Shown piece after piece: positions 42,665-62,391 of a DNA stretch of 64,000 nt (positions within the stretch are counted from its first letter, which is position 1; each line of letters begins with the position of its first letter). The stretch is taken from contig NZ_CP113783.1 of assembly GCF_029542205.1 (NCBI RefSeq), positions 797,001-861,000 on the forward strand. Reading direction: 5' to 3'. The notes under the pieces were generated by a model. It saw nothing but the letters and a program-made list of their open reading frames with translations. It was not told the DNA's origin and made no database searches. The stretch is from Pseudoxanthomonas sp. SE1 (lineage in GTDB: Bacteria; Pseudomonadota; Gammaproteobacteria; Xanthomonadales; Xanthomonadaceae). A program made the position numbers and the translations under genes.

Positions 42665-42738
42665 GCGGGTGTAGTTCAATGGTAGAACTGCAGCTTCCCA
42701 AGCTGCTAGCGTGGGTTCGATTCCCATCACCCGCTCCA
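42665..42738 (+). tRNA. tRNA-Gly (anticodon CCC)
   Basis: 74 nt including an encoded CCA. The acceptor stem is GCGGGTG/CACCCGC, the anticodon stem GCAGC/GCTGC with loop TTCCCAA, and the T arm contains GGTTCGATTCC. It closely resembles E. coli glyU. It is a single tRNA gene, not in a cluster. Confidence 0.97.
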
Positions 42739-47825: not shown

Positions 47826-48659
47826 TCAGCGTGCCCAGCCCAGCCGCGACAGCACGGTCTGTGTGGGCTTGGCCAGGTTGAGCGTGTAGAAATGCAGCGA
47901 GGGCGCGCCGCCTGCGATCAGGCGTTCGCACAGGCCGGCGACCACGTCGGCACCGAAGTCGCGGACGGCATCCGCATCGTCGCCCAGCGCCTGCATGCGC
48001 TTGCCGATCCAGCGCGGGATCTCCGCGCCGCAGGCCTCGGAGAAACGGCGCAACTGGGCGAAGTTGGAGATCGGCATGATGCCCGGGATGATCGGGATCT
48101 CCACCCCGAGCCTGCGCACCGCGTCCACGAAGTGGAAGTACGCATCCGGGTTGTAGAAGTACTGGGTGATCGCGCCATCGGCGCCGGCATCGACCTTGGC
48201 CTTGAAGTGGCGCAGGTCCATCAGTGCATCTGCCGCCTGCGGGTGGGTCTCGGGATACGCGCCGACTTCGATATGGAAGGTGTCGCCGTGCTCGGCGCGG
48301 ATGAATTCGATCAGTTCGGAGGCGTACCGCAGGTCGCCGGGATGGCCCATGCCGGAAGGCAGGTCACCGCGCAGGGCGACGATGCGCTTGCAGCCGAGGG
48401 CCCGATACAGCCGCAGCAGTTCGCGGATTTCCTCGCGGCTGCCGCCCACGCACGAGAGGTGCGGCGCGGCATCGAAGCCATGGTGCTGGTTGAGGTGGCG
48501 GACCGTTTCGGAGGTATAGCTGAGGGTGGAGCCGCCTGCGCCGAACGTGCACGACACATATTCGGGTGCGTACGCCTTGAGCTTGTCCGCGGTGCGGTCC
48601 AACTGCGTGCGCTGCTCATCGGTCTTGGGAGGATAGAACTCGAAGCTGATGGATGGCAT
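47826..48659 (-). CDS. metF: 5,10-methylenetetrahydrofolate reductase
   Basis: FAD enzyme making 5-methyltetrahydrofolate for methionine synthesis. 277 residues, TIM barrel, starting MPSISFEFYPPKTDEQ (active-site Glu in the first strand), with CTFGAGGST, IVALRGD and ITQYFYNPDAYF. ATG 48659 is set by the family start. The promoter carries the palindrome shared with ahcY and metK. The xanthomonad protein is slightly shorter than E. coli MetF (296). Confidence 0.97.
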   Translation of the reverse strand: MPSISFEFYPPKTDEQRTQLDRTADKLKAYAPEYVSCTFGAGGSTLSYTSETVRHLNQHHGFDAAPHLSCVGGSREEIRELLRLYRALGCKRIVALRGDLPSGMGHPGDLRYASELIEFIRAEHGDTFHIEVGAYPETHPQAADALMDLRHFKAKVDAGADGAITQYFYNPDAYFHFVDAVRRLGVEIPIIPGIMPISNFAQLRRFSEACGAEIPRWIGKRMQALGDDADAVRDFGADVVAGLCERLIAGGAPSLHFYTLNLAKPTQTVLSRLGWAR

Positions 48660-48686: not shown

Positions 48687-48710
48687 AGTATATCTCTTCA
48701 TCCGGATGAA
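48687..48710 (-). promoter_or_regulatory. metF promoter with methyl-cycle operator
   Basis: On the minus strand the perfect palindrome TTCATCCGGATGAA (48697-48710) is followed after four bases by -10 TATACT (48687-48692). The same layout recurs upstream of ahcY and metK. Confidence 0.7.
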
Positions 48711-48792
48711 TGATGCTCCCGGGCGGCGTCGGACCGTATCCCACGGCGGGCTGGCGCGGCTACCCTGTCGCCATCCCGCCGCCGGCTGCCGC

Positions 48793-49350
48793 ATGACCAT
48801 CGTCCTCACGCCCTTCGCCCGCACCCGCCTGTTCCCCGCCGACAAGCGCCGCAATGCCATCCAGGACTGCACCCCGGAGGCATTCGAGCAACGCCTCAAC
48901 GAAGAGAAGCCGCTGCATGTACTCGATGGCTATGCTCCGTTCTGTCGCCTGCACGTGCACCGGAACTGGACGTCGACCCGCTGCCTGACCATGCCGATCA
49001 CCGACGGCAACCGGCATCTGCTGCGGTCGGGCTACGAAGCACGCTCGTCGGCGGAACTGCCCGTGCTGGTGCGCTGGTTCGAAGGGGTCGAACCGCCGGT
49101 GGCCGACTACCTGGTCGTCATCCTCTACAGCGCCGCGCAGCTGGCGAAGGAGGAGGCGCCGATCGACGGCGACTGGGGCGTGGTGGGCTGCCTCTACACC
49201 GCCACGCCGCAGGAGATCCCGATGGCGCCCATCACGATGATGCGCAATGCGCTGGGCGTGGAAGAAGGCGGCTCGGGCGTGCCGCTGGATGCCGGGGCCT
49301 ACCGGCGGAGCGTGGCGTTCTGGGAACGCAATGCCAACTGGCGCCCGTAG
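48793..49350 (+). CDS. DUF3228-family protein
   Basis: 185 residues of the DUF3228 type: IVLTPFARTRLFPADKRRNA at the start, HVHRNWTSTRCLTMPITDGN, and C-terminal GVPLDAGAYRRSVAFWERNA. The role of this family is not known. No signal or membrane segment is seen. It is divergent from metF and convergent with the gluconokinase gene, 18 bases apart. Confidence 0.88.
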   Translation: MTIVLTPFARTRLFPADKRRNAIQDCTPEAFEQRLNEEKPLHVLDGYAPFCRLHVHRNWTSTRCLTMPITDGNRHLLRSGYEARSSAELPVLVRWFEGVEPPVADYLVVILYSAAQLAKEEAPIDGDWGVVGCLYTATPQEIPMAPITMMRNALGVEEGGSGVPLDAGAYRRSVAFWERNANWRP

Positions 49351-49368
49351 AAGGCGCATCGTTGTGGC

Positions 49369-49881
49369 TCAGGGCAACGCCAGCGCCGCCAGCGCATCGC
49401 GCAGCTGCACGGCGGGCGGATCGGCCACGTCGATCCCCGTGACATCGGCTTCCTCCCGCGGCGCTTCCAGCGCGGCGAACTGGCTGTCCAGCAGCGAGGC
49501 CGGCATGTAATGGTCATGGCGCACCTGCAGCCGCGTGGCGATCAGCTCCTGGTCGCCGTGCAGGAACAGGAACCGCATTGGCACGCCGGTCGCACGCAGC
49601 CGGTCACGGTGGCGCCGGCGCAGGCCGGAGAACGCCAGCACCACGCGTTCGCCTGCCGCCACGTGTTGTTGCAGGTCCATGGCGATGCGACGTACCCAGG
49701 GGGCGCGCATGCGGTCGGTGAGCGGTCGGCCACTGGCCATGCGCGCTTTCGCCACCGCGCTGTGGAAGTCGTCGGCATCCAGGAACGTCGCTGGCCAGGC
49801 GCCGGCCAAGGCGCGCGCCAGGGTGGTCTTGCCGCTGCCCGACACGCCCATCACCACGATGACGTTCACGCGGTCGCTCAT
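49369..49881 (-). CDS. gntK: Gluconokinase
   Basis: Phosphorylates gluconate to 6-phosphogluconate. 170 residues with P-loop [12 protein letters not shown] (residues 11-22), FLDADDFH and the substrate segment [14 protein letters not shown] characteristic of GntK. ATG 49881 overlaps the stop of the GH94 gene (ATGA), so it is the third gene of the transporter-phosphorylase-kinase operon. The pairing makes sense because GH94 cellobionate phosphorylase releases gluconate. Confidence 0.95.
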
Positions 49882-52250
49882 GCCGGCACTTCCACCCGCA
49901 CCTGGTAGGTGCGTCCCGCTGCGAAGCCACGGATGGCGGCGTCGTCCTGCCACACGCCATCCAGCGCCACACGTACCTGGGTGAGCCCGGCGACGCGTTC
50001 GATGGCGACCTCGAACGTGGCGCCCCGGAAGCGGCGCGACGCGCGCGCCGACGGCCAGTGCGAGGGCAGGTGCGGTTCGATCCGCAACGCATCGCCATCG
50101 CCACGCAGGCCGAACAGCTCCTCCACCAGGCAGCGGTACAGCCAGGCGGCGGTGCCGGTGTTGAACAACTGGCTGGAACGGCCGGCGGTACGCGGGTGCA
50201 GCCGCCACGCGCCCCGGTAGTAGTTGGGCACGAACACCGGCAACTGGCCGCGCTGCAGGCAATCGGCCGCCTCCGGCGAAGGCAGCATCGCGCGCAGCAC
50301 CTGCCAGGCACGGTCGGCATCCCCGGCCTGGTACAGGCTGTAGAGGTAGAACGCTGCGGCATGGTTGTAGACCGCGCCGTTCTCGGCGGTGCCCGGGAAC
50401 TTCTGCGTCACCCGCCCAATATCCTCGCGCATGCGCGTGTACGGCGGGTCGTACATGGTCACGCCATACGGCGATACCAGGTGCGTGTCGATGGCGCCCA
50501 GCATGCGCGCCTGCCGGCCCGCATCCGCCGCGCCGCTGAGCAGGGCCCAGCTCTGCGGGTTGAGGAAGAGGCGGCCTTCGTGGTCCGCGCTGACGCCGAA
50601 CGCGACACCATCGTCGGTGATGCCGCGACCGTACCAGTCGCCGTCCCACAGGTGCGTGTTCATGGCGGCATTGCATGCTTCCGCGCCCGCGCGGAACTCG
50701 TCGGCGCGCGCCGCGTCACCACGGCGTGCGCAGATGTCCGCCCACTGCTTCAACGCATAGGCGCTGGCCAGCGTCAGCCAGCCGGACACGCCGCGCCCGC
50801 GCCAGCCGACCATGTTCATCGGATCGCACCAGTCGCCCTGCGCGATGTAGCTCAGCCCGCGCGCATCGCGCGCCTGCAGCAGCCAGCGCATGGCGTGCGT
50901 GATGCGCTCGCCGACCGGGGCGGCATGGCCCTCGCGGTCGGTGACCATGGCGTCGAGCATCGCGTCGTCACCCGTCTCGTCCAGGTAGGCGCGCAGGCAG
51001 ACCGGCAGCCACACGCAATGGTCGGTGTGCGGGATCTGGTTGATGTACTTCAGCTCGGCGCCTTCGACCAGCAGGACGCCGTCCGGCATCGCCCCGGACG
51101 GTTCCTGCTGCGACAGCGCATGCAGGAACGCCGCCCGCGCCACCTCGGGACGGAGGAAGGCCATGCCCATGTGGTCCTGCAGGTAGTTGCGTGTCTGCGG
51201 GTCCGTCGTCAGGCGGTTGACGTCGCCGTGGTAGAACACCTGCCGCGGCAGCCAGTGGTTGGCGAACGCATCCAGCCACGGATCGGGCGTTTCGATGCGC
51301 AGGCAGCCCGCGCCGGCCTCGATGTGCGCGGCGCCAGCGCTCCGGGCTTCGGCGAAACCGTCCAGTGAAAGATGTCGCGCGCGCAGCTGGCGGATCCCGT
51401 CATCGTCGCGCGCGGGCGCGAACACGAAGCGGTACTCCTGCATCTCGCCATCGTCGAGCGCCACGCGGTACTGCAGCACCGTCGTCGGCATTTCGTAGGC
51501 CGCGTCGCCGCCGCCCAGACACTCGCCGCCGACGATGCCGTGCGGGGCATGCAGCCCGCCTTCGCCCTCGAACTGGGCCTGGTTCGCTTCCCATGCGTCC
51601 GGCGTACGCGCGTGCAACAGCACGGTACGGTCCTTGAAGTCGCGCTGGCGGAAGTAGTCCTCGACCTTCTGGTACGGCGCGATGCTGTCGCAGACGATCG
51701 CGCCCAAGTCGGCGCGGTACCGTCCGGACTGGTTCATCCACGACATGTAGCCGACCGGGAAATACGGATACAGGCTCAGTCGTCGTCGTCGGCCCGACCG
51801 GTTGCGCACGCGCACCGTCCACAACTCCGCCACGTCGTCGACTGGCAACACCACGCCCATCTCGACCTCGATGCCCGCGCATCGCACCCGCCACGCGACA
51901 TCGCTCAGGCCGACGGAGAACGCGAACGCCTCCGGCGTCCGTCGCACCGGTTCGTGTGGCACCGAAAAAAGTCCGCCGTCCTCCTCGTCCTTCACGTAGC
52001 AGAAGCGGCCCGGATGGTGCGCGTAATACGGCTGTTCCGGCTGCATGAAGGTCTTGGCCTCCAGCGTCGGTGCATGCGCGTATTTGGCGGGCTCCGGCTG
52101 CATGAACTGCGCCGTGGCGAATCCGCGGCAGTTGAGTTGCAGCAGCATGCGCCGGTTCCACAGGAACGTGGACGCGGCGGGCATCGCCGTGGGACTGGTC
52201 AGGATGAAGCGGCGGCCCTGTTCCTCGAAGCCGTACGGCACGTTCGTCAT
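49878..52250 (-). CDS. GH94 glycoside phosphorylase, probably cellobionic acid phosphorylase
   Basis: 790 residues, cytoplasmic (no signal). It has an N-terminal beta-sandwich, a helical (alpha/alpha)6 barrel and a C-terminal sandwich. The catalytic acid is expected in the [17 protein letters not shown] segment (general-acid Asp), with phosphate-binding His/Thr residues in [16 protein letters not shown]94 covers cellobiose, chitobiose and cellobionic acid phosphorylases. The adjoining gluconokinase and sugar carrier favour cellobionate + Pi giving glucose-1-phosphate + gluconate, as established for the Saccharophagus and Neurospora enzymes. Specificity is inferred from context. Confidence 0.88.
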
Positions 52251-53647
52251 GCCGATGCCTCCCGGCGCGATTTCAGTTCGGCCTGGATCTGAGCCAGCGT
52301 GGCGTCATCCAGCGGATAGAACCGCATTACCCATGCAGCCAGCAGGGCGACGCCACCTGGGATGGCTGTCAGCAGCAGCACGATGCCGAGCCGCGAGGCA
52401 TCCGACTGCGCCGCGTTCGCCACATAGCCCATGCCGGCCAGGATCCACGCGATCGTCGCCGACGCCAGCGCACCGCCGAGTTTCTGCGAGAACGTCGCCG
52501 CGGCGAAGGTCATCGCGGTGGCGCGCCGGCCGGTCTTCCATTCGGTGTAATCCGCACAGTCGGCGTACATCGAGAACGCCAGCGGCGATTTCGGCCCCAG
52601 CATCAGGCCGACCAGCAGGTTGAGCGCGAACATGACCCAGACCGATTCAGGGGGGATGAAGAACATCGCACAACTCACCACGCCGACGCCCGCCATCAGC
52701 CACGCCATCAATCTGCGCTTGTCGACGTAGCGGGTCATCAGTGGCGTCAGCCCGGCGCCCACGGCCAGGGCCAGCGCATAGGCGCCCAGGAAAAGACCGG
52801 TCAGCTCCGGCCGCTCGAGATGGTACTTGAGGTAATACGCCAGCGAGCCGCCCCGCATCACGATGGTCACCATGATGATCAGCGCCAACGCGAACAGCAC
52901 CATCCACGGCCGGTTGTGCAGCAGGTCGGTCACGTCCTGGCGGACGGCGCTGCGTTGCTGCGGCAGCGGCGCGACGCGTTCGCGCGTGGTCAGGAACACC
53001 GTGACGAACGCAGCCGTGGCGATCATGCCGTACAGCGACAGCGTCAACTGCCAGCCCAGCGCCTCATCGCCATGTCCGAGCCAGCGCACCAGGTCCAGCG
53101 TGAGCCAGTTCACCGCCATCGTGCCGGCGAAGGCGGCGATGAAGCGGAAACTGATCAGCTGGGTGCGCTGCTGGCTGTCGGCCGTGATCACACCGGAGAG
53201 CGCGGAGTAGGGAATGCTCAGCACGGTATAGGCCAGCATCATCAGGGTGAAGGTCGCATACGCCCACACCAGTTTTCCCCCGTCGCCGAGATCGGGCACG
53301 GTCCAGGTCAGCACGCCCGCGAACGCCATCGGCAATGCCCCATAGAGCAGATAGGGCCTGAAGCGACCAGACCGGCTGCGCGTGCGATCCGCGAGTGCGC
53401 CCATCAGCGGATCGGTGACGGCGTCCACCACCTTGGTGAGGAGCATCATCGTGCCGACTGCGGCGGCGGCCAGTCCCATCACGTCGGTATAGAAGATGAG
53501 CAGGAACGCCGAGATGTTGGCCCAGTAAAGGTTGAAGCCGAAATCGCCGACGCCGTAGCCGACTTTTTCGCCCAGACGGGGTTCCGTTGCTGGTGTTGCC
53601 TTGCTTGCGGGGTGCGCGGTGCCGCCGCTCCCCTGGTCGCGTTGCAT
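52247..53647 (-). CDS. GPH-family sugar/uronide:cation symporter (MFS)
   Basis: 466 residues with twelve membrane helices. The GPH signature is [20 protein letters not shown] in helix 1, [15 protein letters not shown] and [18 protein letters not shown] in the central loop. It belongs with MelB/UidB-type carriers. It overlaps the GH94 gene by four bases and probably imports the disaccharide or aldobionate used by it. ATG 53647 follows GGGAG five bases upstream, which favours it over the in-frame GTG at 53653. Confidence 0.9.
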
Positions 53648-53803
53648 GTCCACTCCCGGATTGACGTCGTTGCGCGACGGGGCACGAAGGACAGTGCCCG
53701 GCGCAAACCGAAACGGCGGCCAAGCTTGCGATGATCGCGCCGGGGAGGCAAGCGCAGGGGTGTGGTGACGGTGACGGTAAAGCGCATTCCGTCACGCAAT
53801 GCA

Positions 53804-53829
53804 GAACGGGCGCCCTGGGGCGCCCGTTC
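53804..53829 (-). terminator. Hairpin after ahcY
   Basis: 11-bp stem GAACGGGCGCC/GGCGCCCGTTC with a four-base loop, 28 bp beyond the ahcY stop. No T tract follows on the minus strand. Confidence 0.6.
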
Positions 53830-53857
53830 CGGAAGTGCAGCGAAACCGCCGACGCGA

Positions 53858-55297
53858 TCAGTAGCGGTAGTGGTCCGGCTTGTACGGGCCTTCGACCGCC
53901 ACGCCGAGGTAGTCGGCCTGGTCCCTGGTGAGCGTGGTCAGCTTCACGCCGATCTTCTCCAGGTGCAGGCGGGCGACTTCCTCGTCCAGCTGCTTCGGCA
54001 GGCGGTAGACGGTCTTCTCGTACACGTCCTTGTTCGCCCACAGGTCGATCTGCGCCAGCGTCTGGTTGGCGAAGGAGTTCGACATGACGAAGCTCGGGTG
54101 GCCGGTGGCGCAGCCCAGGTTCACCAGGCGGCCTTCGGCCAGCAGGAAGATCGCATTGCCGTTCGGGAACACGAACTTGTCCACCTGCGGCTTGATGTTG
54201 ATGCGCTTGGCTTCCGAGGCGTACAGCGCATCCACCTGGATCTCGTTGTCGAAGTGGCCGATGTTGCAGACGATGGCCTGGTCCTTCATCGCCTTCATGT
54301 GCTCGAGGGTAATGATGTCCTTGTTGCCGGTCGTGGTGACGTAGATGTCGGCCTGGCCCAGGCTGTCCTCGACGGTGTTGACCTCGAAGCCTTCCATCGC
54401 CGCCTGCAGCGCGCAGATCGGATCGATCTCGGTGACGATGACGCGGGCGCCGTACGCGCGCAGCGAGTGCGCCGAGCCCTTGCCCACGTCGCCGTAGCCG
54501 CAGACTACCGCGACCTTGCCGGCCAGCATCACGTCCATCGCGCGCTTCAGGCCGTCGGCCAACGACTCGCGGCAGCCGTACAGGTTGTCGAACTTGGACT
54601 TGGTGACCGAGTCGTTGACGTTGATCGCCGGCACCAGCAGCTTGCCGGCTTCGGCGATCTGGTACAGGCGGTGCACGCCGGTGGTGGTCTCTTCGGAGAC
54701 GCCCTTCCAGTCCTTGACCACGCGGGTCCAGTAACCGGGGCGCTCGACGGCGACGCGCTTCAGCAGCGCCTTGATCACGCCTTCCTCGTGCGAGGAGGCC
54801 GGCTCGTCGACCCACTTCGAGCCGTTCTCCAGCTCATAGCCCTTGTGGATCAGCAGGGTGACGTCGCCGCCATCGTCCACCACCAGCTCCGGACCGGTCT
54901 GGGTGCCGTCGGGCAGGGTGAAGGTCAGTGCGTCGAGCGTGCAGTCCCAGTATTCCTCCAGCGTCTCGCCCTTCCACGCGAACACCGGCGTGCCGGTGGC
55001 GGCGATCGCGGCGGCAGCGTGGTCCTGCGTCGAGAAAATGTTGCACGAAGCCCAGCGCACGTCGGCGCCGATGTCCTTCAGCGTCTCGATCAGCACGGCG
55101 GTCTGGATCGTCATGTGCAGCGAGCCGGTCACGCGCACGCCGTCCAGCGGCCTGGTGGCGGCATGCTTGCGGCGGATCGACATCAGGCCGGGCATCTCGT
55201 GCTCGGCGATGTCGAGTTCCTTGCGGCCCCAGTCGGCCAGGGAAATGTCGGCGACCTTGTAGTCGCCCTCGGTCGAAAACTTGCGTACTGCGTTCAT
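53858..55297 (-). CDS. ahcY: Adenosylhomocysteinase
   Basis: Splits S-adenosylhomocysteine into adenosine and homocysteine, relieving product inhibition of methyltransferases. 479 residues with the NAD fold [19 protein letters not shown], the [16 protein letters not shown] hinge (here [12 protein letters not shown]) and C-terminal KPDHYRY. The ATG at 55297 is preceded by GGAG seven bases upstream. The leader carries an SAH riboswitch and the promoter the shared palindrome. The upstream gene ppc is divergent. Confidence 0.98.
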
Positions 55298-55334
55298 GGC
55301 ATTGCTCCGGTCTGTGCGATCAGGGTCGCAGGTT

Positions 55335-55460
55335 ATCCGGGCGCCGTTGCAGGTTCATTCCGCCGAGCCTGGCCGGACTATGTGGAAAGTCTGCACAAGG
55401 ATGTGCAGGCTTTTGCGGAAGGATCCGCACATGTCACGGTCGCAGCGCCCCTCGGCGAAG
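55335..55460 (-). promoter_or_regulatory. SAH riboswitch in the ahcY leader
   Basis: On the minus strand the leader begins CGCCGAGGGGCGCTGCGACC and later has CCAGGCTCGGCG and GCAACGGCGCCC. P1 pairs CGCCGAG with CTCGGCG (7 bp). P2 pairs GGGCGC with GCGCCC. The conserved core GAGG(R)GCGCTGC and CCAGGCTCG match the SAH riboswitch known from Ralstonia. The variable arm holds two extra hairpins. In this class, binding SAH turns ahcY on. Confidence 0.87.
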
Positions 55461-55467
55461 GGCGGCC

Positions 55468-55491
55468 ATTATATCGCTTGTTCCGGATGAA
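55468..55491 (-). promoter_or_regulatory. ahcY promoter with methyl-cycle operator
   Basis: On the minus strand TTCATCCGGAACAA (55478-55491), four bases, then -10 TATAAT (55468-55473). Transcription would start near 55461, directly at the 5' edge of the riboswitch. Confidence 0.75.
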
Positions 55492-55611
55492 ACGATGGCG
55501 CACGGATTTGCCTGATCGGGTAGGCTTGGATTGTTGCCTTGCAGCAGACCAATTGCCCTTCCCGGCAATACCAATACAAGCCAAACGAACGACGGGATCC
55601 ACGCGCCGCGC

Positions 55612-58335
55612 ATGAACAGCCCCCGCAGTCTCGAATTCGCTCCGCCCGATGTCCCCTTGCGTGAAGACGTGCGCCGGCTGGGCGCGCTGGTCGGCGACAT
55701 GCTGGCCGAACAGGTGTCGCCCGATTTCCTGGCCGATGTGGAGCGCGTGCGCACCACCGCCATCGCGCGCCGGCAGGCCGGCGAGCCGCCGCAGTCACTG
55801 GCGGGGCTTCTGGATGGCCAGCCGCCCGAGCAGGCGGAATCGTTGATCCGCGCCTTCAGCACCTATTTCCAGGTCGTGAACATCGCCGAGCGCGTCCACC
55901 GCATCCGCCGTCGCCGTGACTATCAGCGCGCCGGCAGTGCGCGGCCGCAGCCCGATGGCCTGCACGACACGCTTTCCAAGCTCAAGGCGCAAGGGGTGAC
56001 GCTGGAAGAGCTGGCCGACTGGCTGCCGCGCATCGACGTGGAGCCGGTGTTCACCGCGCACCCGACCGAAGCCGTGCGCCGGGCGCTGCTGGAAAAGGAG
56101 CAGCTGATGGTGGCCAGCCTGATCAACGGGCTGGACGGCACGCGTACGCCGGGCGAACTGGCCACCGACACCGCGCGTTTCCGCATGGCGCTGACCTCGG
56201 CCTGGCAGACGGCGGATTCTTCGCCTGTCCGGCCAGGAGTCGAGGACGAGCGCGAGCATGTCGGCTTCTACCTGATCGAAGTGCTCTACCGCGTCATCCC
56301 GGTGCTGTATGAAACGCTGGAGAACGCGATCACGGAGGTCTACGGCGCTGCGCCGCAGGTCACCGCGCACCTGCCCCGGGTGTTGCGTTTCGGCACCTGG
56401 GTCGGCGGCGACATGGACGGCAACCCGAACGTCGATGCCGGCACGATCACCGCCACGCTGGATGCGCAACGACGCGCCATCCTGACGCGCTACCTGAAGG
56501 AACTGCGCCAGCTCACCACGCTGCTCAGTCAATCGAGCTCCATCATCGGGGTGTCGCGCGATGTGGCCGAGCGCGTGGAGGCCTATCGCGCGCTGATGCC
56601 GGAAGCAGTGAAGAAGTCGCGCCCGCGCCATGGCGACATGCCGTACCGCCTGCTCAACGACCTGATGCGTGCGCGCCTGCAGGCCGCGCTGGACGGCCGC
56701 CCGGAAGGCTATGCCTCGCCGGAGGAACTGGCGCATGACGTCGACCTGATCCTCAACAGCCTGGAAGCCAACCGCGGCATCCATGCCGGCTGGTTCGCCG
56801 TGCGCCGCTTGGCGTGGCGTGTGCGCACGTTCGGCTTCCATCTCGCGCGGTTGGATGTGCGCCAGGAATCCAGCGTGCATGCGCGTGCCGTGGCTGCGGC
56901 CTTGGGCGACGCGGGCTGGGAAAGCCGCGATGCCGTCGACCGCGCAGCCCTGCTGGGTCCGTATGCCAACGGCGATGCGGCGCTGCCGGCCAGCAGTGAA
57001 GAGGGCAACGACCGTCTCGATGCGGTTTTCCGTGCGTTGGCCGATGCGCGTGCGCGCCACGGCACCGATGCGCTGGGGACCTACATCATCAGCATGGCGC
57101 ACAGCCGCGCCGACGTGTTGACCGTATTGGCGCTGGCGCGGCGTGGCGGCCTGGTCGACGATGCAGGGCAGGTGCCGCTCGATATCGCGCCGCTGTTCGA
57201 GACCATCGACGACCTCGGACATGGCACCGAGGTGCTGCGCGACCTGCTCGCCGACCCCGTCTATCGCGCCCACCTGGCCGCGCGCTACAACGTGCAGATG
57301 GTGATGCTGGGTTACTCCGACAGCGGCAAGGACGGCGGCATCGCCGCCTCGCGCTGGGGGCTGCAGCGGGCGCAGGTGGACCTCGTCGACGCTGCGCAGG
57401 AACTCGGCATCAAGCTGACGTTCTTCCATGGCCGTGGCGGGTCGATCATCCGCGGCGGTGGCAAGACCTCGCGCGCGCTGGAAGCGGCGCCGCGCGGCAG
57501 CGTCGACGGCCGCCTGCGCGTGACCGAGCAGGGCGAGGTGATCCATCGCAAGTACGGCATCCGCGCATTGGCGCTGCGTTCGCTTGAGCAGTCCGTCGGC
57601 GCCGTGTTGCTGTCCAGCCTGCGCCCGCGTCCGCCGGAGCCGCGCGAAGCGCACTGGCGCGAGATCATGGCGCTGGTCGCGAGCGAGAGCACGCAGGCCT
57701 ACCGCGCGTTCGTGCAGTCGCCGCGCTTCATGGACTATTTCCGCAGTGCCACACCGATCGATGTGATCGAACGGATGACGTTGGGTTCGCGACCCTCGCG
57801 ACGGCTGGGCCAGGACGCGGCGCTCGGCAACCTGCGCGCGATTCCGTGGGTGTTCGCCTGGAGCCAGGCGCGCGCGGTGATCCCCGGCTGGTACGGCGTG
57901 GGCGCCGGCCTGCAGGCAGCCGCAGATGCGTACGGTGAAGACGCGCTGCGCGAGATGGCGCGCGACTGGCCGTTCTTCAAGACCTTCCTCGACGACGTCT
58001 CGATGGTGCTGGCGAAGGGCGACCTGAGCATCGCCGAGATGTACTCGAAGATGGCCGGCGAGCTGCACGATGCGTTCTTCCCGCGGATACAACGCGAGCA
58101 CGCATCGGTGCTGCACTGGGTGCTGACGCTCAACGGCAATGAATGGCTGCTGCAGCACGACCAGCGACTCGCGCTGTCGATCCGGTTGCGCAATCCCTAC
58201 ATCGACCCGATCAGCATCATGCAGGCCGACCTGCTGAAGCGCTGGCGCGCCAGTGATCGCGAGGACGACGCGCTGCTGCATGCCCTGGTGGCCAGCATCA
58301 ACGGCGTGTCGCAGGGTGTGCAGAATACCGGCTGA
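55612..58335 (+). CDS. ppc: Phosphoenolpyruvate carboxylase
   Basis: Anaplerotic enzyme making oxaloacetate from PEP and bicarbonate. 907 residues with catalytic H150 ([12 protein letters not shown]), [37 protein letters not shown] (bicarbonate and PEP site) and C-terminal QNTG. ATG 55612 gives the family start. The frame upstream is open but reads non-family sequence. It is divergent from ahcY and convergent with uup. Confidence 0.97.
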
Positions 58336-58349
58336 GGCGATCTCGCTTC

Positions 58350-58430
58350 TGTAGGAGCGCCCTCGGGCGCGATGCCTTTCATTCCGATCATTCCCCGCGC
58401 ATGAGCATCGCGCCCGAGGGCGCTCCTACA
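58350..58430. repeat. GTAG-type palindromic repeat between ppc and uup
   Basis: Perfect 26-bp arms, 58350-58375 and 58405-58430, around 29 bp. The ends are TGTAGGAGCG / CGCTCCTACA. It lies between convergent genes and can form a long hairpin in both transcripts, so it may act as terminator. Confidence 0.85.
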
Positions 58431-58444
58431 TGGGGTTCAGGATT

Positions 58445-60304
58445 TCACCCATCCAGCTCCGACCAGCGCTGGTATGCATGCTCGAGTTCCGTCTGCCTGG
58501 CCGCGAGCTCGTCATTCGCGCGCTGCAGGTCGGCGGGCGCCTGCTGGTAATAGGCCGCGTCGTTCATGGCCGCCGTGCGTTTGGCGATGTCGGTTTCCAA
58601 TGACTCGATGCGCGAGGGCAGCAGTTCCAGTTCGCGTGCTTCCTTGAAGCCCAGCTTGCGCTTGGCCGCCGCCGGTTCCGGTTGTTTGGACAGCGTGGGC
58701 TTAGCCGGCGTCGCAGACGCGACAACCGGCGTGCGGCGTTGCCTCAGCCAATCCGAATAGCCACCGACGTAGTCGCCCAGTCGGCCTTCGCCCTCCAGCA
58801 CCAGCGTGCTGGTGACGACGTTGTCGAGGAAGTCGCGGTCGTGGCTGACCAGCAGCAGCGTGCCCTTGTAGTCCAGCAGCAGCTCTTCCAGCAGTTCCAG
58901 CGTTTCCACGTCCAGGTCGTTGGTGGGTTCGTCCATCACCAGCAGGTTGGAGGGCTGCGCGAACAGCTTGGCCAGCAGCAGGCGGTTGCGCTCGCCGCCG
59001 GACAGGCGGGTGATCGGCGCGCGGGCGCGCTCGGGCGAGAACAGGAAGTCCTGCAGGTAGCCGATGACGTGCTTGCGGCTGCCGTTGATCTCGACGAAGT
59101 CGCTGCCTTCGGCGACGTTCTCCAGCGTGGTGCGCGTGTCGTCCAACTGGCTGCGGTGCTGGTCGAAGTAGGCGATCTGCAGCCCGGTACCCAGCTTCAC
59201 CTCGCCGTGCTGCGGGGCGAGTTCGCCCAGCAGGATCTTCAACAGCGTCGACTTGCCCGCACCATTCGGGCCGACGATGCCGACGCGGTCACCGCGCATG
59301 ATCGTCGCCGACACATCGTCCAGCAGCACGCGACCGTCATAGGCCTGGGTGATGTCTTTCGCCTCGATGACCTTCTTGCCCGACGACTGTGCCGCCGCGG
59401 CTTCCATCCTGACGTTGCCGGATAGGTCGCGTCGTTGGGCGCGCTCGCGCCGCATCGCCTTCAGCGCGGTCACGCGGCCCTCGTTGCGGGTACGGCGCGC
59501 CTTGATGCCTTGGCGGATCCACACTTCTTCCTGCGCCAGCAGCTTGTCGAAGCGCGCGTTCTCCTGCGCCTCGGCATGCAGGCGCTCTTCGCGCCGACGC
59601 AGGTAGTTGTCGTAGTCGCCCGGCCAACTGGTCAGCTGGCCGCGGTCGATCTCGAGGATGCGCGTGGCCAGCGAGCGCAGGAAGCTGCGGTCATGGGTGA
59701 CGAACACGATGCTGCCGCCGAAGGACTTCAGGAAGCCCTCCAGCCAGGCGATCGCCTCGATGTCCAGGTGGTTGGTGGGTTCGTCCAGCAGCAGGATGTC
59801 CGGGTTGCGCACCAGCGCCTGCGCCAGCAGCACGCGCCGCTTCATGCCGCCGGAGAGCGCAGCGAAGTCGGTTTCTTCGGGCAGTTCCAGGCGCGTCAGC
59901 ACCTGTTGCACGCGCAGGTCGAGGTCCCAGCCGTGCTGCGCCTCGATCTGCGCTTGTGCCTCGCCCATCGCATCCATGTCCCCGTCGTGGAGGGCATGGT
60001 GGTAGCGCGCCAGCAACTGGCCCAGGTCGCCCAGTCCTTCGGCGACCACATCGAACACGGTGCCCTGCGTGTCCTGCGGCACTTCCTGCGCCATGCGCGC
60101 GACGATCACGCCGTTCTGCACGCGGATCTCGCCGTCGTCGGGCTTCAGTTCGCCGGCCATCAGCCGCATGAGCGTGGATTTGCCCATGCCGTTGCGGCCG
60201 ACGATGCAGACGCGCTCGCCGGGTTCGATGGACAGGTCGACGTGTTCGAGGAGAAGCGGCCCGCCGACGCTGAAGTCGACCCGCTGGAATTGCATCAAGG
60301 ACAT
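58445..60304 (-). CDS. uup: ABC-F ATPase Uup
   Basis: Cytoplasmic ribosome-associated ATPase with two ABC domains and no membrane part, 619 residues. First P-loop GRNGMGKST (36-44) with LSGGMKRR; second P-loop GPNGAGKST (about 345) with LSGGERNR; DEPTNHLD and DEPTNDLD follow. The linker is basic (KARRTRNEGRVTALKAMRRE), and a C-terminal coiled coil (about 550-619) is typical of Uup. A -10 box lies six bases before the ATG, so the mRNA is probably leaderless. The thioesterase gene is upstream on the same strand. Confidence 0.95.
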   Translation of the reverse strand: MSLMQFQRVDFSVGGPLLLEHVDLSIEPGERVCIVGRNGMGKSTLMRLMAGELKPDDGEIRVQNGVIVARMAQEVPQDTQGTVFDVVAEGLGDLGQLLARYHHALHDGDMDAMGEAQAQIEAQHGWDLDLRVQQVLTRLELPEETDFAALSGGMKRRVLLAQALVRNPDILLLDEPTNHLDIEAIAWLEGFLKSFGGSIVFVTHDRSFLRSLATRILEIDRGQLTSWPGDYDNYLRRREERLHAEAQENARFDKLLAQEEVWIRQGIKARRTRNEGRVTALKAMRRERAQRRDLSGNVRMEAAAAQSSGKKVIEAKDITQAYDGRVLLDDVSATIMRGDRVGIVGPNGAGKSTLLKILLGELAPQHGEVKLGTGLQIAYFDQHRSQLDDTRTTLENVAEGSDFVEINGSRKHVIGYLQDFLFSPERARAPITRLSGGERNRLLLAKLFAQPSNLLVMDEPTNDLDVETLELLEELLLDYKGTLLLVSHDRDFLDNVVTSTLVLEGEGRLGDYVGGYSDWLRQRRTPVVASATPAKPTLSKQPEPAAAKRKLGFKEARELELLPSRIESLETDIAKRTAAMNDAAYYQQAPADLQRANDELAARQTELEHAYQRWSELDG

Positions 60305-60310
60305 GTGCGT

Positions 60311-60316
60311 ATTGTA
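60311..60316 (-). promoter_or_regulatory. -10 box of a probable leaderless uup mRNA
   Basis: On the minus strand TACAAT, then ACGCAC, then the ATG at 60304. No Shine-Dalgarno sequence is present between the thioesterase stop and this ATG. Confidence 0.5.
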
Positions 60317-60344
60317 GCCGGCGCGCGCCGGCCGAAACGGCGGT

Positions 60345-60842
60345 TCAGGCGTTTTCCGCCGCCCGGCTGCCCAGTTCGGCGTGCCGCCGTTCCATTTCCT
60401 CGCGCAACTGACGGCGCAGGCGCGCGGCGGCGAAGCGGCGGATCTCGTCCGGCGTGGACGGCTCCAACGGCGGCACCGGCGTAGTACGGCCGTCGTCGTC
60501 GACCGCGACCATCGTGAAGAAGCAGCTGTTCGCGTGGCGCACGCTCTGCTTGCGGATATCCTCGGCCACCACCTTGATGCCGATCTCCATCGACGAGGTG
60601 CCGGTGTGGTTGACCGAGGCCAGGAAGGTCACCAGTTCGCCCACGTTGATGGCCTGGCGGAACATCACCTGGTCCACCGACAGGGTGACCACGTACTTGC
60701 CGGCGTAGCGGCTGCCGCAGGCGTAGGCCACCTGGTCGAGCAGCTTGAGGATGGCGCCGCCGTGGACCTTGCCGGAGAAGTTGGCCATGTCCGGCGTCAT
60801 CAGCACCGTCATCGTGAGCTGGTGGCTTTTGAGTGATTCCAC
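60345..60842 (-). CDS. Acyl-CoA thioesterase (YciA/ACOT type hotdog)
   Basis: 165 residues with the hotdog motif NFSGKVHGGAILKLLDQVAY, catalytic Asp within HGGAILKLLD, and TLSVDQVMFRQAINVGELV. The C-terminal tail is long, Arg-rich and helical. It hydrolyses acyl-CoA in the cytoplasm; chain preference is not visible. GTG 60842 is preferred because GGAGG lies six bases upstream; the frame extends to a TTG five codons further. It may share a promoter with uup, although uup also has its own -10. Confidence 0.9.
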   Translation of the reverse strand: MESLKSHQLTMTVLMTPDMANFSGKVHGGAILKLLDQVAYACGSRYAGKYVVTLSVDQVMFRQAINVGELVTFLASVNHTGTSSMEIGIKVVAEDIRKQSVRHANSCFFTMVAVDDDGRTTPVPPLEPSTPDEIRRFAAARLRRQLREEMERRHAELGSRAAENA

Positions 60843-60910
60843 GGCATGCCTCCGCAAGGTGAGGCGCGCAGGCTAACCGATCCCGGCGCGGGGCGTGCGA
60901 TGCCGCTTCC

Positions 60911-60941
60911 CGAAAGAAAACGGGCCGCTGGTGCGGCCCGT
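60911..60941 (-). terminator. Intrinsic terminator after metK
   Basis: On the minus strand stem ACGGGCCGC/GCGGCCCGT with loop ACCA, followed by TTTCTTTC. It starts 27 bases beyond the metK stop. Confidence 0.8.
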
Positions 60942-60967
60942 TCCTGTCATCGTGAAGGTCGCGGCGA

Positions 60968-62179
60968 TTACTTCAGCTTGGCATCCTTGCGGAGCGCTTC
61001 GGCGCGGTCGGTCTTCTCCCAGGAGAAGGCGGTCGCGGTGTGCTTCTTGCCGGCGCCGTCCACGTAGCTGATCTCGCGCGGCTTGCGGCCGAAGTGGCCG
61101 TAGCTGGCGGTCGGCTGGTAGATCGGGTGCTCCAGGTCGAGCATCCTGGTGATGCCGTACGGGCGCAGGTCGAAGTGCTTGCGGATCAGCTTCTCGATGA
61201 CGTCGTCACCGACCTTGCCGGTGCCGAACGTGGTCACCGAGATCGAGGTCGGCTCGGCCACGCCGATGGCGTAGGAGACCTGCACTTCGCACTTGTCGGC
61301 CAGGCCGGCGGCCACGATGTTCTTGGCCACGTAACGCGCGGCGTAGGCGGCCGAACGGTCCACCTTCGACGGATCCTTGCCCGAGAACGCGCCGCCGCCA
61401 TGACGGGCCATGCCGCCGTAGCTGTCGACGATGATCTTGCGGCCGGTCAGGCCGCAGTCGCCCACCGGGCCACCGATGACGAACTTGCCGGTCGGGTTGA
61501 TGTGCACCTTGTTCTTCGGCAGCGCGTCCAGCCACTTCTTCGGCAGCACGGGCTTGAGGATGCTCTCGCGCACGGCTTCGATCAGGTCCTTCTGCTTGAC
61601 GTCCGGGTCATGCTGGGTGGACAGCACGACAGCGTCGAGGCCGAGGATGCTGTTGCCGTCGTAGCGCAGCGTGACCTGCGACTTGGCGTCGGGGCGCAGC
61701 CACTTCAGTTTGCCGTTCTTGCGGACCTTGGCCTGCTGTTCCACCAGGCGGTGGCTGTAGTACAGCGGGGCAGGCATGAATTCCGGCGCCTCGTTGCAGG
61801 CGTAGCCGAACATCAGGCCCTGGTCGCCCGCGCCCTGTTCTTCCGGCTTCTTGCGGTCCACGCCCTGGTTGATGTCGGGCGACTGCTTGCCGAGCATGTT
61901 GATGATGGCGCAGGTGTGGCCGTCGAAACCGACGTCCGAATTGTCGTAGCCGATGTCGTTGATGACCTTGCGCGCCAGCGACTCGATGTCGACCCACGCG
62001 GTGGTGGTGACTTCGCCGGCCACGATGGCGGCACCCGTCTTCACCAGGGTTTCGCAGGCCACGCGTGCGCGCTTGTCCTGGGCCAGGATCGCGTCCAGCA
62101 CGGCGTCGGAGATCTGGTCGGCGATCTTGTCCGGATGGCCTTCGGAGACCGATTCGGAGGTGAACAGGTAGCTGGACAT
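60968..62179 (-). CDS. metK: S-adenosylmethionine synthetase
   Basis: Makes SAM from methionine and ATP. 403 residues starting [20 protein letters not shown], with [12 protein letters not shown] and the P-loop-like [16 protein letters not shown]. The ATG 62179 is firm because it matches the family start. The -10 box lies only four bases upstream, so the mRNA has practically no leader. The operator shared with metF and ahcY overlaps the promoter. Confidence 0.98.
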
Positions 62180-62183
62180 CAGG

Positions 62184-62207
62184 CTTATATCCTTTGATTC
62201 GGATGAA
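62184..62207 (-). promoter_or_regulatory. metK promoter with methyl-cycle operator
   Basis: On the minus strand TTCATCCGAATCAA (62194-62207), four bases, then -10 TATAAG (62184-62189), then CCTG and the ATG. The spacing is identical to metF and ahcY. No SAM riboswitch is possible in so short a leader. Confidence 0.75.
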
Positions 62208-62391
62208 AAGATGGGCGCGCATGATACACGCCGGGGGCGGTGTGTGCATTCTGCGTCGTTCAGGGTTGCCGCGGGTTAAGCGGGAATCACGGCTCCGCTG
62301 TCACCGGACTGCCAGAAAACGGAAACCGGGCTGTCGCCGGCCAGGCGCAGGCTGCGCGGCGAAACCCCGCCGCCAGGCTTTGCCCACGACC

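Follow-up and report, generated by a model that had tools for sequence, protein, structure and literature searches.

Proteins of the ArsR family have been associated with the control of methionine and methyl-cycle genes in two related systems. The first is SahR, a regulator responsive to S-adenosylhomocysteine (SAH) that binds a 20-bp palindrome and whose core targets are sahR, ahcY, metH, metF and metK (PMC4239095, PMC8877191). The second is SamR of the Xanthomonadales, predicted in passages of Leyn 2014 (PMC4239095) to be a SahR-like regulator of the same family, about 30% identical to SahR, which would recognise a 24-bp palindrome of the type ATC-10nt-GAT at samR-metH1-metH2, metF, metK, metX2 and metE. 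In that survey of four Xanthomonadales genomes, metK was the only gene of the S-adenosylmethionine (SAM) cycle in the regulon and SAM was inferred to be the ligand for that reason, the question being left unsettled (PMC4239095). The present analysis concerns a stretch of 64,000 nucleotides of Pseudoxanthomonas sp. SE1 (hereafter the window; positions 797001-861000 of contig NZ_CP113783.1, in a genome of 4,229,371 bases), where metF, ahcY and metK share a palindrome of this type, taken here as a putative operator. At ahcY, this operator lies directly ahead of an SAH riboswitch, and the same element recurs at ahcY in other genomes of the order. The motif, the regulator and most of the targets had already been predicted, and what we take to be new is the stack of operator and riboswitch at ahcY, together with a site at a TonB-dependent receptor.

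The shared sequence forms a 24-bp palindrome, approximately ATCGCTTCATCC joined to GGATGAAGCGAT, with half-sites of the form TTCA-N6-TGAA. The preliminary description of the window had given the site as 14 bp, but the comparison of sites identifies that 14-mer as the core of the longer palindrome. The three 14-mers themselves lie where they had been placed, that is, TTCATCCGGATGAA at 48697-48710 for metF, TTCATCCGGAACAA at 55478-55491 (minus strand) for ahcY and TTCATCCGAATCAA at 62194-62207 (minus strand) for metK, followed after 4 bases by TATACT, TATAAT and TATAAG, respectively. The centre of symmetry falls between positions 12 and 13, where the share of complementary pairs is highest in each of six sets of sites; the alternative centre given by ATC-10nt-GAT, which would fall between positions 16 and 17, is secondary in the metF/metK, ahcY and samR sets and was discarded. 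ATC occupies positions 9-11 in 29/29 training sites and GAT positions 22-24 in 28/29. These training sites, from which the scoring matrix was built, are 29 metF/metK sites of the window and of named relatives, picked by eye (consensus score of 14 or more at the expected place) once identical repeats and loci without a site had been dropped. The features of the window on which the argument depends are the following:

47826..48659, minus strand: metF, methylenetetrahydrofolate reductase (NCBIfam TIGR00676, 333 bits)
48687..48692, minus strand: probable -10 box of metF, TATACT, its first base common to the operator; a -10-like hexamer is seen by eye at or close to this position in most operator-bearing metF upstreams
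48692..48715, minus strand: predicted 24-bp operator of metF (G000:C1:845692-845715), with 3 mismatches, the right arm intact and the left outer arm shifted by one base
53858..55297, minus strand: ahcY, adenosylhomocysteinase (NCBIfam TIGR00936, 623 bits)
55332..55459, minus strand: SAH riboswitch aptamer of ahcY (Rfam RF01057, 53.8 bits against a gathering value of 37, 78/78 model positions)
55468..55473, minus strand: predicted -10 box of ahcY, TATAAT, its first base common to the operator; a -10-like sequence sharing the operator's last T follows the operator in 46/46 ahcY-operator genomes
55473..55496, minus strand: predicted 24-bp operator of ahcY, ATCGTTTCATCCGGAACAAGCGAT, matching the 24-bp pattern; the same element in 46/130 genomes of the order
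60968..62179, minus strand: metK, S-adenosylmethionine synthetase (NCBIfam TIGR01034, 594 bits)
62189..62212, minus strand: predicted 24-bp operator of metK, ATCTTTTCATCCGAATCAAAGGAT, which spans roughly +2 to +25 when counted from TATCAT as the -10 box
62190..62195, minus strand: probable Shine-Dalgarno sequence of metK, AAAGGA, inside the right arm of the operator
62221..62226, minus strand: probable true -10 box of metK, TATCAT, with TG before it; a TATSRT hexamer in 24/35 metK upstreams

The 24-bp pattern is specific at the level of the whole genome. With ATCNNTTCATCNNNATNAAGNGAT and up to 3 mismatches, 13 strand hits were obtained at 8 places, against 0 for the reversed control, and these places are metE, metX2, a TonB-dependent receptor, ahcY, metK, metF and two weaker ones at 1339789 and 3193164. 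Matches outside the methionine genes are few, amounting to the receptor and the two weaker places. (The metX gene of this genome is equated with the metX2 of Leyn by assumption, from its type, NCBIfam homoserine O-succinyltransferase MetX.) Furthermore, a divergent copy, ATCTCTATATCGCGATAGGAAGAT, beyond the reach of this search, lies upstream of samR, 4 bases away from its start codon. The preliminary description had proposed to look for the site at metE, metH or a sahR-like gene, and it is indeed found at metE and, in this more divergent form, at samR-metH1-metH2.

At ahcY, the operator was recognised in 46 of 130 genomes with a matrix score of at least 11.8, spread over 22 of 47 genera and over each of the 5 families represented. 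That cut-off was set after the scores had been seen; 1680 shuffles give a 99.9% point of 11.7 and a maximum of 12.8, the latter exceeded by 44 of the 130 genomes. The sample comprises the genomes ranked highest by AhcY among the 236 with a match, less G186, the 105 lower-ranked ones being left out. All 9 genomes of the window's genus carry the operator, six genera are mixed, and it is absent from three others (g3, 0/17; g5, 0/6; g8, 0/7). In genus g2, where 4 of 6 genomes have it, weak and decayed forms are visible, which suggests loss. Neither the five named Xanthomonas nor the four named Stenotrophomonas loci carry it, and this may explain why ahcY did not appear in the 2014 survey of four genomes. 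Among the literature matches listed for SahR, SamR and SAH riboswitches, in which most subscription journals are not covered, an ahcY operator is unreported in titles and abstract openings.

The second layer at ahcY is the SAH aptamer, which begins approximately where transcription from TATAAT would start and which scores above gathering in 42 of the 46 ahcY-operator genomes. In the other four, L272 falls below gathering (33.1 bits), L273 gives no match, and L175 and L186 remain below gathering though the core pattern is seen. The opposite idea, that the operator replaces the riboswitch and both are mutually exclusive, arose as an artefact of searching for the aptamer core with text patterns, which overlooked it in many operator-bearing loci. 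It was rejected when Rfam placed 18 of 20 such missed loci above gathering, the other two being L272 and L273. Long aptamer matches of about 125 nt are also present in L209 and L212, two other genomes of the window's genus. In a further genome, G030, a thiamine pyrophosphate (TPP) riboswitch (L213 235-329) is located within 630 bases upstream of ahcY, on the strand opposite to that of the SAH aptamer.

This stacking is not restricted to ahcY. A SAM-I riboswitch was found in the leader of metX2 in 20/20 loci tested, of 30, and a cobalamin riboswitch in that of metE in 18/18 loci, so that one type of operator is paired with a different RNA sensor at each of three genes: SAH for ahcY, SAM-I for metX2 and cobalamin for metE. 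The cobalamin match of metE (L068 2581-2815) begins upstream of the operator (2606-2629), so that both annotations share sequence; that match may be spurious in its 5' part.

Conservation of the site in relatives extends to metF, metK, ahcY, metX2, metE and samR. The matrix finds it in every locus fetched for metX2 (30/30; lowest score 25.6, shuffled maximum 10.0), metE (18/18; lowest 18.7, shuffled maximum 8.6) and samR (30/30; lowest 21.3, shuffled maximum 14.9), the metX2 gene being present in 49 and the metE gene in 18 of 60 family genomes. With the training loci included, the site stands in 29/35 metK and 17/24 metF upstreams examined. One set of 20 genomes was picked by hand. As regards the TonB-dependent receptor, the shuffled maximum of 13.5 is exceeded by 14 of 15 orthologues with at least 57% identity and by 6 of 15 more distant ones. 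Its operator in this genome is a strong one (L070 2919-2942, G000:C1:3317918-3317941). The receptor itself matches vitamin B12 receptor models, though below their cut-off, and the word "TonB" is absent from the main text of PMC4239095.

The position of the operator relative to promoter-like elements differs from gene to gene. At metF and ahcY, its last T is at the same time the first T of the -10 box (GATATACT, GATATAAT), and the predicted operator covers the spacer and a weak -35 region up to the -10. For these two genes, the fixed 4-base spacing to the -10 box and the filling of the -10/-35 spacer, both proposed before for all three, remain valid. They do not hold for metK: only 4 bases separate TATAAG (62184-62189) from the ATG (62179), and a normal transcription start would fall inside the gene. 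TATAAG was therefore rejected as a -10 box in favour of a TATCAT/TATGAT-type hexamer whose end is 36-50 nt before the ATG in 24/35 metK upstreams. Because this hexamer recurs even where the operator is missing (5 of 6 such upstreams), the metK operator is probably placed just downstream of the transcription start, where it includes the Shine-Dalgarno sequence AAAGGA and would cover the start region and ribosome-binding site. At metX2, the same arm of the operator runs into a TTGACA of the -35 type (GCGATTGACA) in 29/30 loci, with TTGACG in L350, and at samR the copy that ends 4 bases before the ATG lies over the ribosome-binding region. A protein bound at any of these positions could act as a block, and it is from them that we infer repression.

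The most plausible binder is encoded 1 Mb away. The samR gene (G000:C1:1894551-1895480; L067:8552-9481) codes for a 309-aa protein of the ArsR family, with an HTH_5 domain at residues 15-60 (1.9e-15) and a Methyltransf_11 domain at residues 152-245 (1e-23), in which the motif VLDIASGDG is invariant in 30/30 relatives. Its stop codon overlaps the start of metH1 by 4 bases, metH1 adjoins samR in 30/30 loci, and in this genome metH2 comes next. Methionine synthase MetH is split into metH1 and metH2 directly after samR (L067 4786-9481). A samR match at E 1e-25 or better is present in 234/239 genomes of the order. Taken as a whole, the sites are probably SamR operators, bound by a putative ArsR-type DNA-binding protein fused to a methyltransferase-fold domain. 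A shared methyl-cycle regulator, for which SahR had been put forward as plausible, has good support; a SahR-like ArsR protein is the best candidate, but the evidence fits SamR rather than SahR itself.

The joint occurrence of site and regulator points weakly in the same direction. Two samR-negative genomes (G010, G020) have neither the ahcY nor the metK site, and three samR-positive members of the same family carry the ahcY site. Where metK upstreams were readable, the metK site is present in 12/15 samR-positive and 1/3 samR-negative genomes, two further samR-negative genomes having only partial metK genes. Within that family (f10), one genus (G010, G020) lacks samR as well as the ahcY operator and two others (G029, G044, G037) have both, which may reflect a regulator lost in nature.

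Several observations weigh against assigning these sites to SamR. The genome holds five further matches to ArsR-type helix-turn-helix domains. G120 has a strong metK site and yet samR was not found in its draft of about 290 contigs, while G044, G029 and G005 are samR-positive and have no metK site. The site is also missing from 7/24 metF and 6/35 metK upstreams examined, from the TonB receptor of L375 and from ahcY in 84 of the 130 genomes. In most relatives of the TonB receptor, the left arm and core are kept and the right outer arm is unconserved. Even L077 (Xanthomonas sp. XNM01), whose AhcY is 96% identical to that of the window, keeps a TATACT in its ahcY promoter without the operator.

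The mechanism considered most likely is a repression of methyl-cycle and methionine genes by SamR, exerted at the promoter and dependent on the SAM/SAH state, with further control specific to each gene coming from the leaders. Bound to the 24-bp palindrome as a dimer, SamR would occlude core elements and so prevent transcription. At metF and ahcY these would be the -35 region and the spacer as far as the -10, at metK and samR the start region with the ribosome-binding site, and at metX2 the border of the -35. Its C-terminal domain would read the SAM/SAH state and thereby decide between release and binding. The promoter layer would then transmit one shared methyl-cycle signal, to which the leader riboswitches of ahcY, metX2 and metE would add a local one.

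Which metabolite would SamR sense? The layout of operators and riboswitches is by itself compatible with both SAM and SAH. One reading, to which we give slightly less than an even chance, is that the signal read by SamR is SAH (or the SAM:SAH ratio), with SAH relieving repression, so that operator and riboswitch at ahcY would read the same metabolite in the same direction. The ahcY operator stands directly ahead of an SAH-responsive leader, and the homologue SahR counts ahcY, metH, metF and metK among its core targets (PMC4239095); the response of SahR to SAH, with ahcY as one of those targets, gives a slight tilt to this side (PMC8877191, PMC4239095). Such a sensor would nevertheless be redundant with the SAH riboswitch at ahcY. 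The other reading, possible though somewhat doubtful in our estimate, makes SamR a SAM sensor, with SAM as the bound co-repressor as in MetJ; abundant SAM would then repress ahcY, and the reading of SAH would be left to the riboswitch. A SAM response is what Leyn et al. proposed, and the regulon does hold genes of SAM supply (metK, metX2, metE and metF). However, the reason stated in 2014 falls, since ahcY carries the operator in 46 of the 130 genomes, and the distant homologue SahR responds to SAH (PMC8877191, PMC4239095). A SAM sensor would, moreover, be redundant with the SAM-I riboswitch at metX2. With a probability somewhat below even, SamR would sense SAH or the SAM:SAH ratio and ahcY would be a two-layer gate in many Lysobacterales, with one repressor broadcasting the methylation state and each leader adding its own metabolite.

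An origin of the sites in MetR, the LysR-type methionine regulator, is very improbable. The MetR consensus is TGAA-N5-TTCA, and the core of the element does hold TTCA and TGAA, but in the opposite order; besides, the same element precedes samR, with metH1 adjoining, in 30/30 loci. The control that MetR exerts on metE and on a second metF in Xanthomonadales (PMC4239095) speaks in its favour; the order of the half-sites and the element at samR led us to reject it.

Shorter patterns give the same picture as long as they are exact. The word TTCATCCGNANNAA occurs at 4 places in the 4.23 Mb genome, namely the three reported for metF, ahcY and metK and one upstream of metX2, and TTCATCCG-N8-GATATA at 3, again metF, ahcY and metK, where 0.003 would be expected from the base composition of the window. 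They become unspecific once mismatches are allowed: with one mismatch, TTCATCCGNANNAA gives 74 strand hits where its reversed control gives 36, and TTCATCCG-N8-GATATA with up to 3 gives 85 where the control gives 57, 365421 and 425161 being among its weaker matches. Chance similarity among promoters, suggested by this looseness and by the TATA-like sequences near all three sites, can be dismissed for practical purposes in view of the excess of the exact word and of the recurrence of the element both at other methionine genes and in distantly related genomes; the shared site at metF, ahcY and metK is real. Elsewhere in the window, a tRNA gene lies at 42665-42735 on the plus strand, with an apparent anticodon CCC (glycine) by eye.

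The presence of the ahcY operator in about a third of the genomes examined, the window's genus in full among them, removes the argument for SAM and provides a clean test promoter. If SamR does sense SAH, ahcY would have a protein sensor of the methyl cycle at its promoter and an RNA sensor of SAH in its first transcribed bases. Three natural pairings of one operator with different riboswitches would be useful to learn what a promoter sensor adds to a riboswitch, and the six genera in which only some species have the ahcY operator would serve the same end.

In comparison with the systems described so far, the locus agrees with the SahR regulon in the ArsR family and in ahcY, metH, metF and metK as targets, and differs in the length of the palindrome (24 bp instead of 20; PMC4239095, PMC8877191). 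With the SamR regulon it shares an ArsR-family gene next to metH1/metH2, the 24-bp ATC-10nt-GAT palindrome and the targets metF, metK, metX2 and metE; unlike in that work, where metK was alone among the SAM-cycle genes, ahcY is included here and in relatives, and the stacking with SAM-I and cobalamin riboswitches goes beyond the passages of PMC4239095 considered. The ahcY leader is an RF01057 SAH riboswitch, above gathering over the full model, but one of its hairpins holds an insert of 57 nt as against 7 nt in the model alignment, and in this order it often has a protein operator ahead. The precedent for an ArsR-family operator and a riboswitch on one methionine operon is hom-metXC of Oceanicaulis alexandrii, with SahR and a SAM_alpha riboswitch, as given in passages of PMC4239095. 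That case involves one genome and a different riboswitch, whereas the stacks presented here comprise three genes with three riboswitches in many genera.

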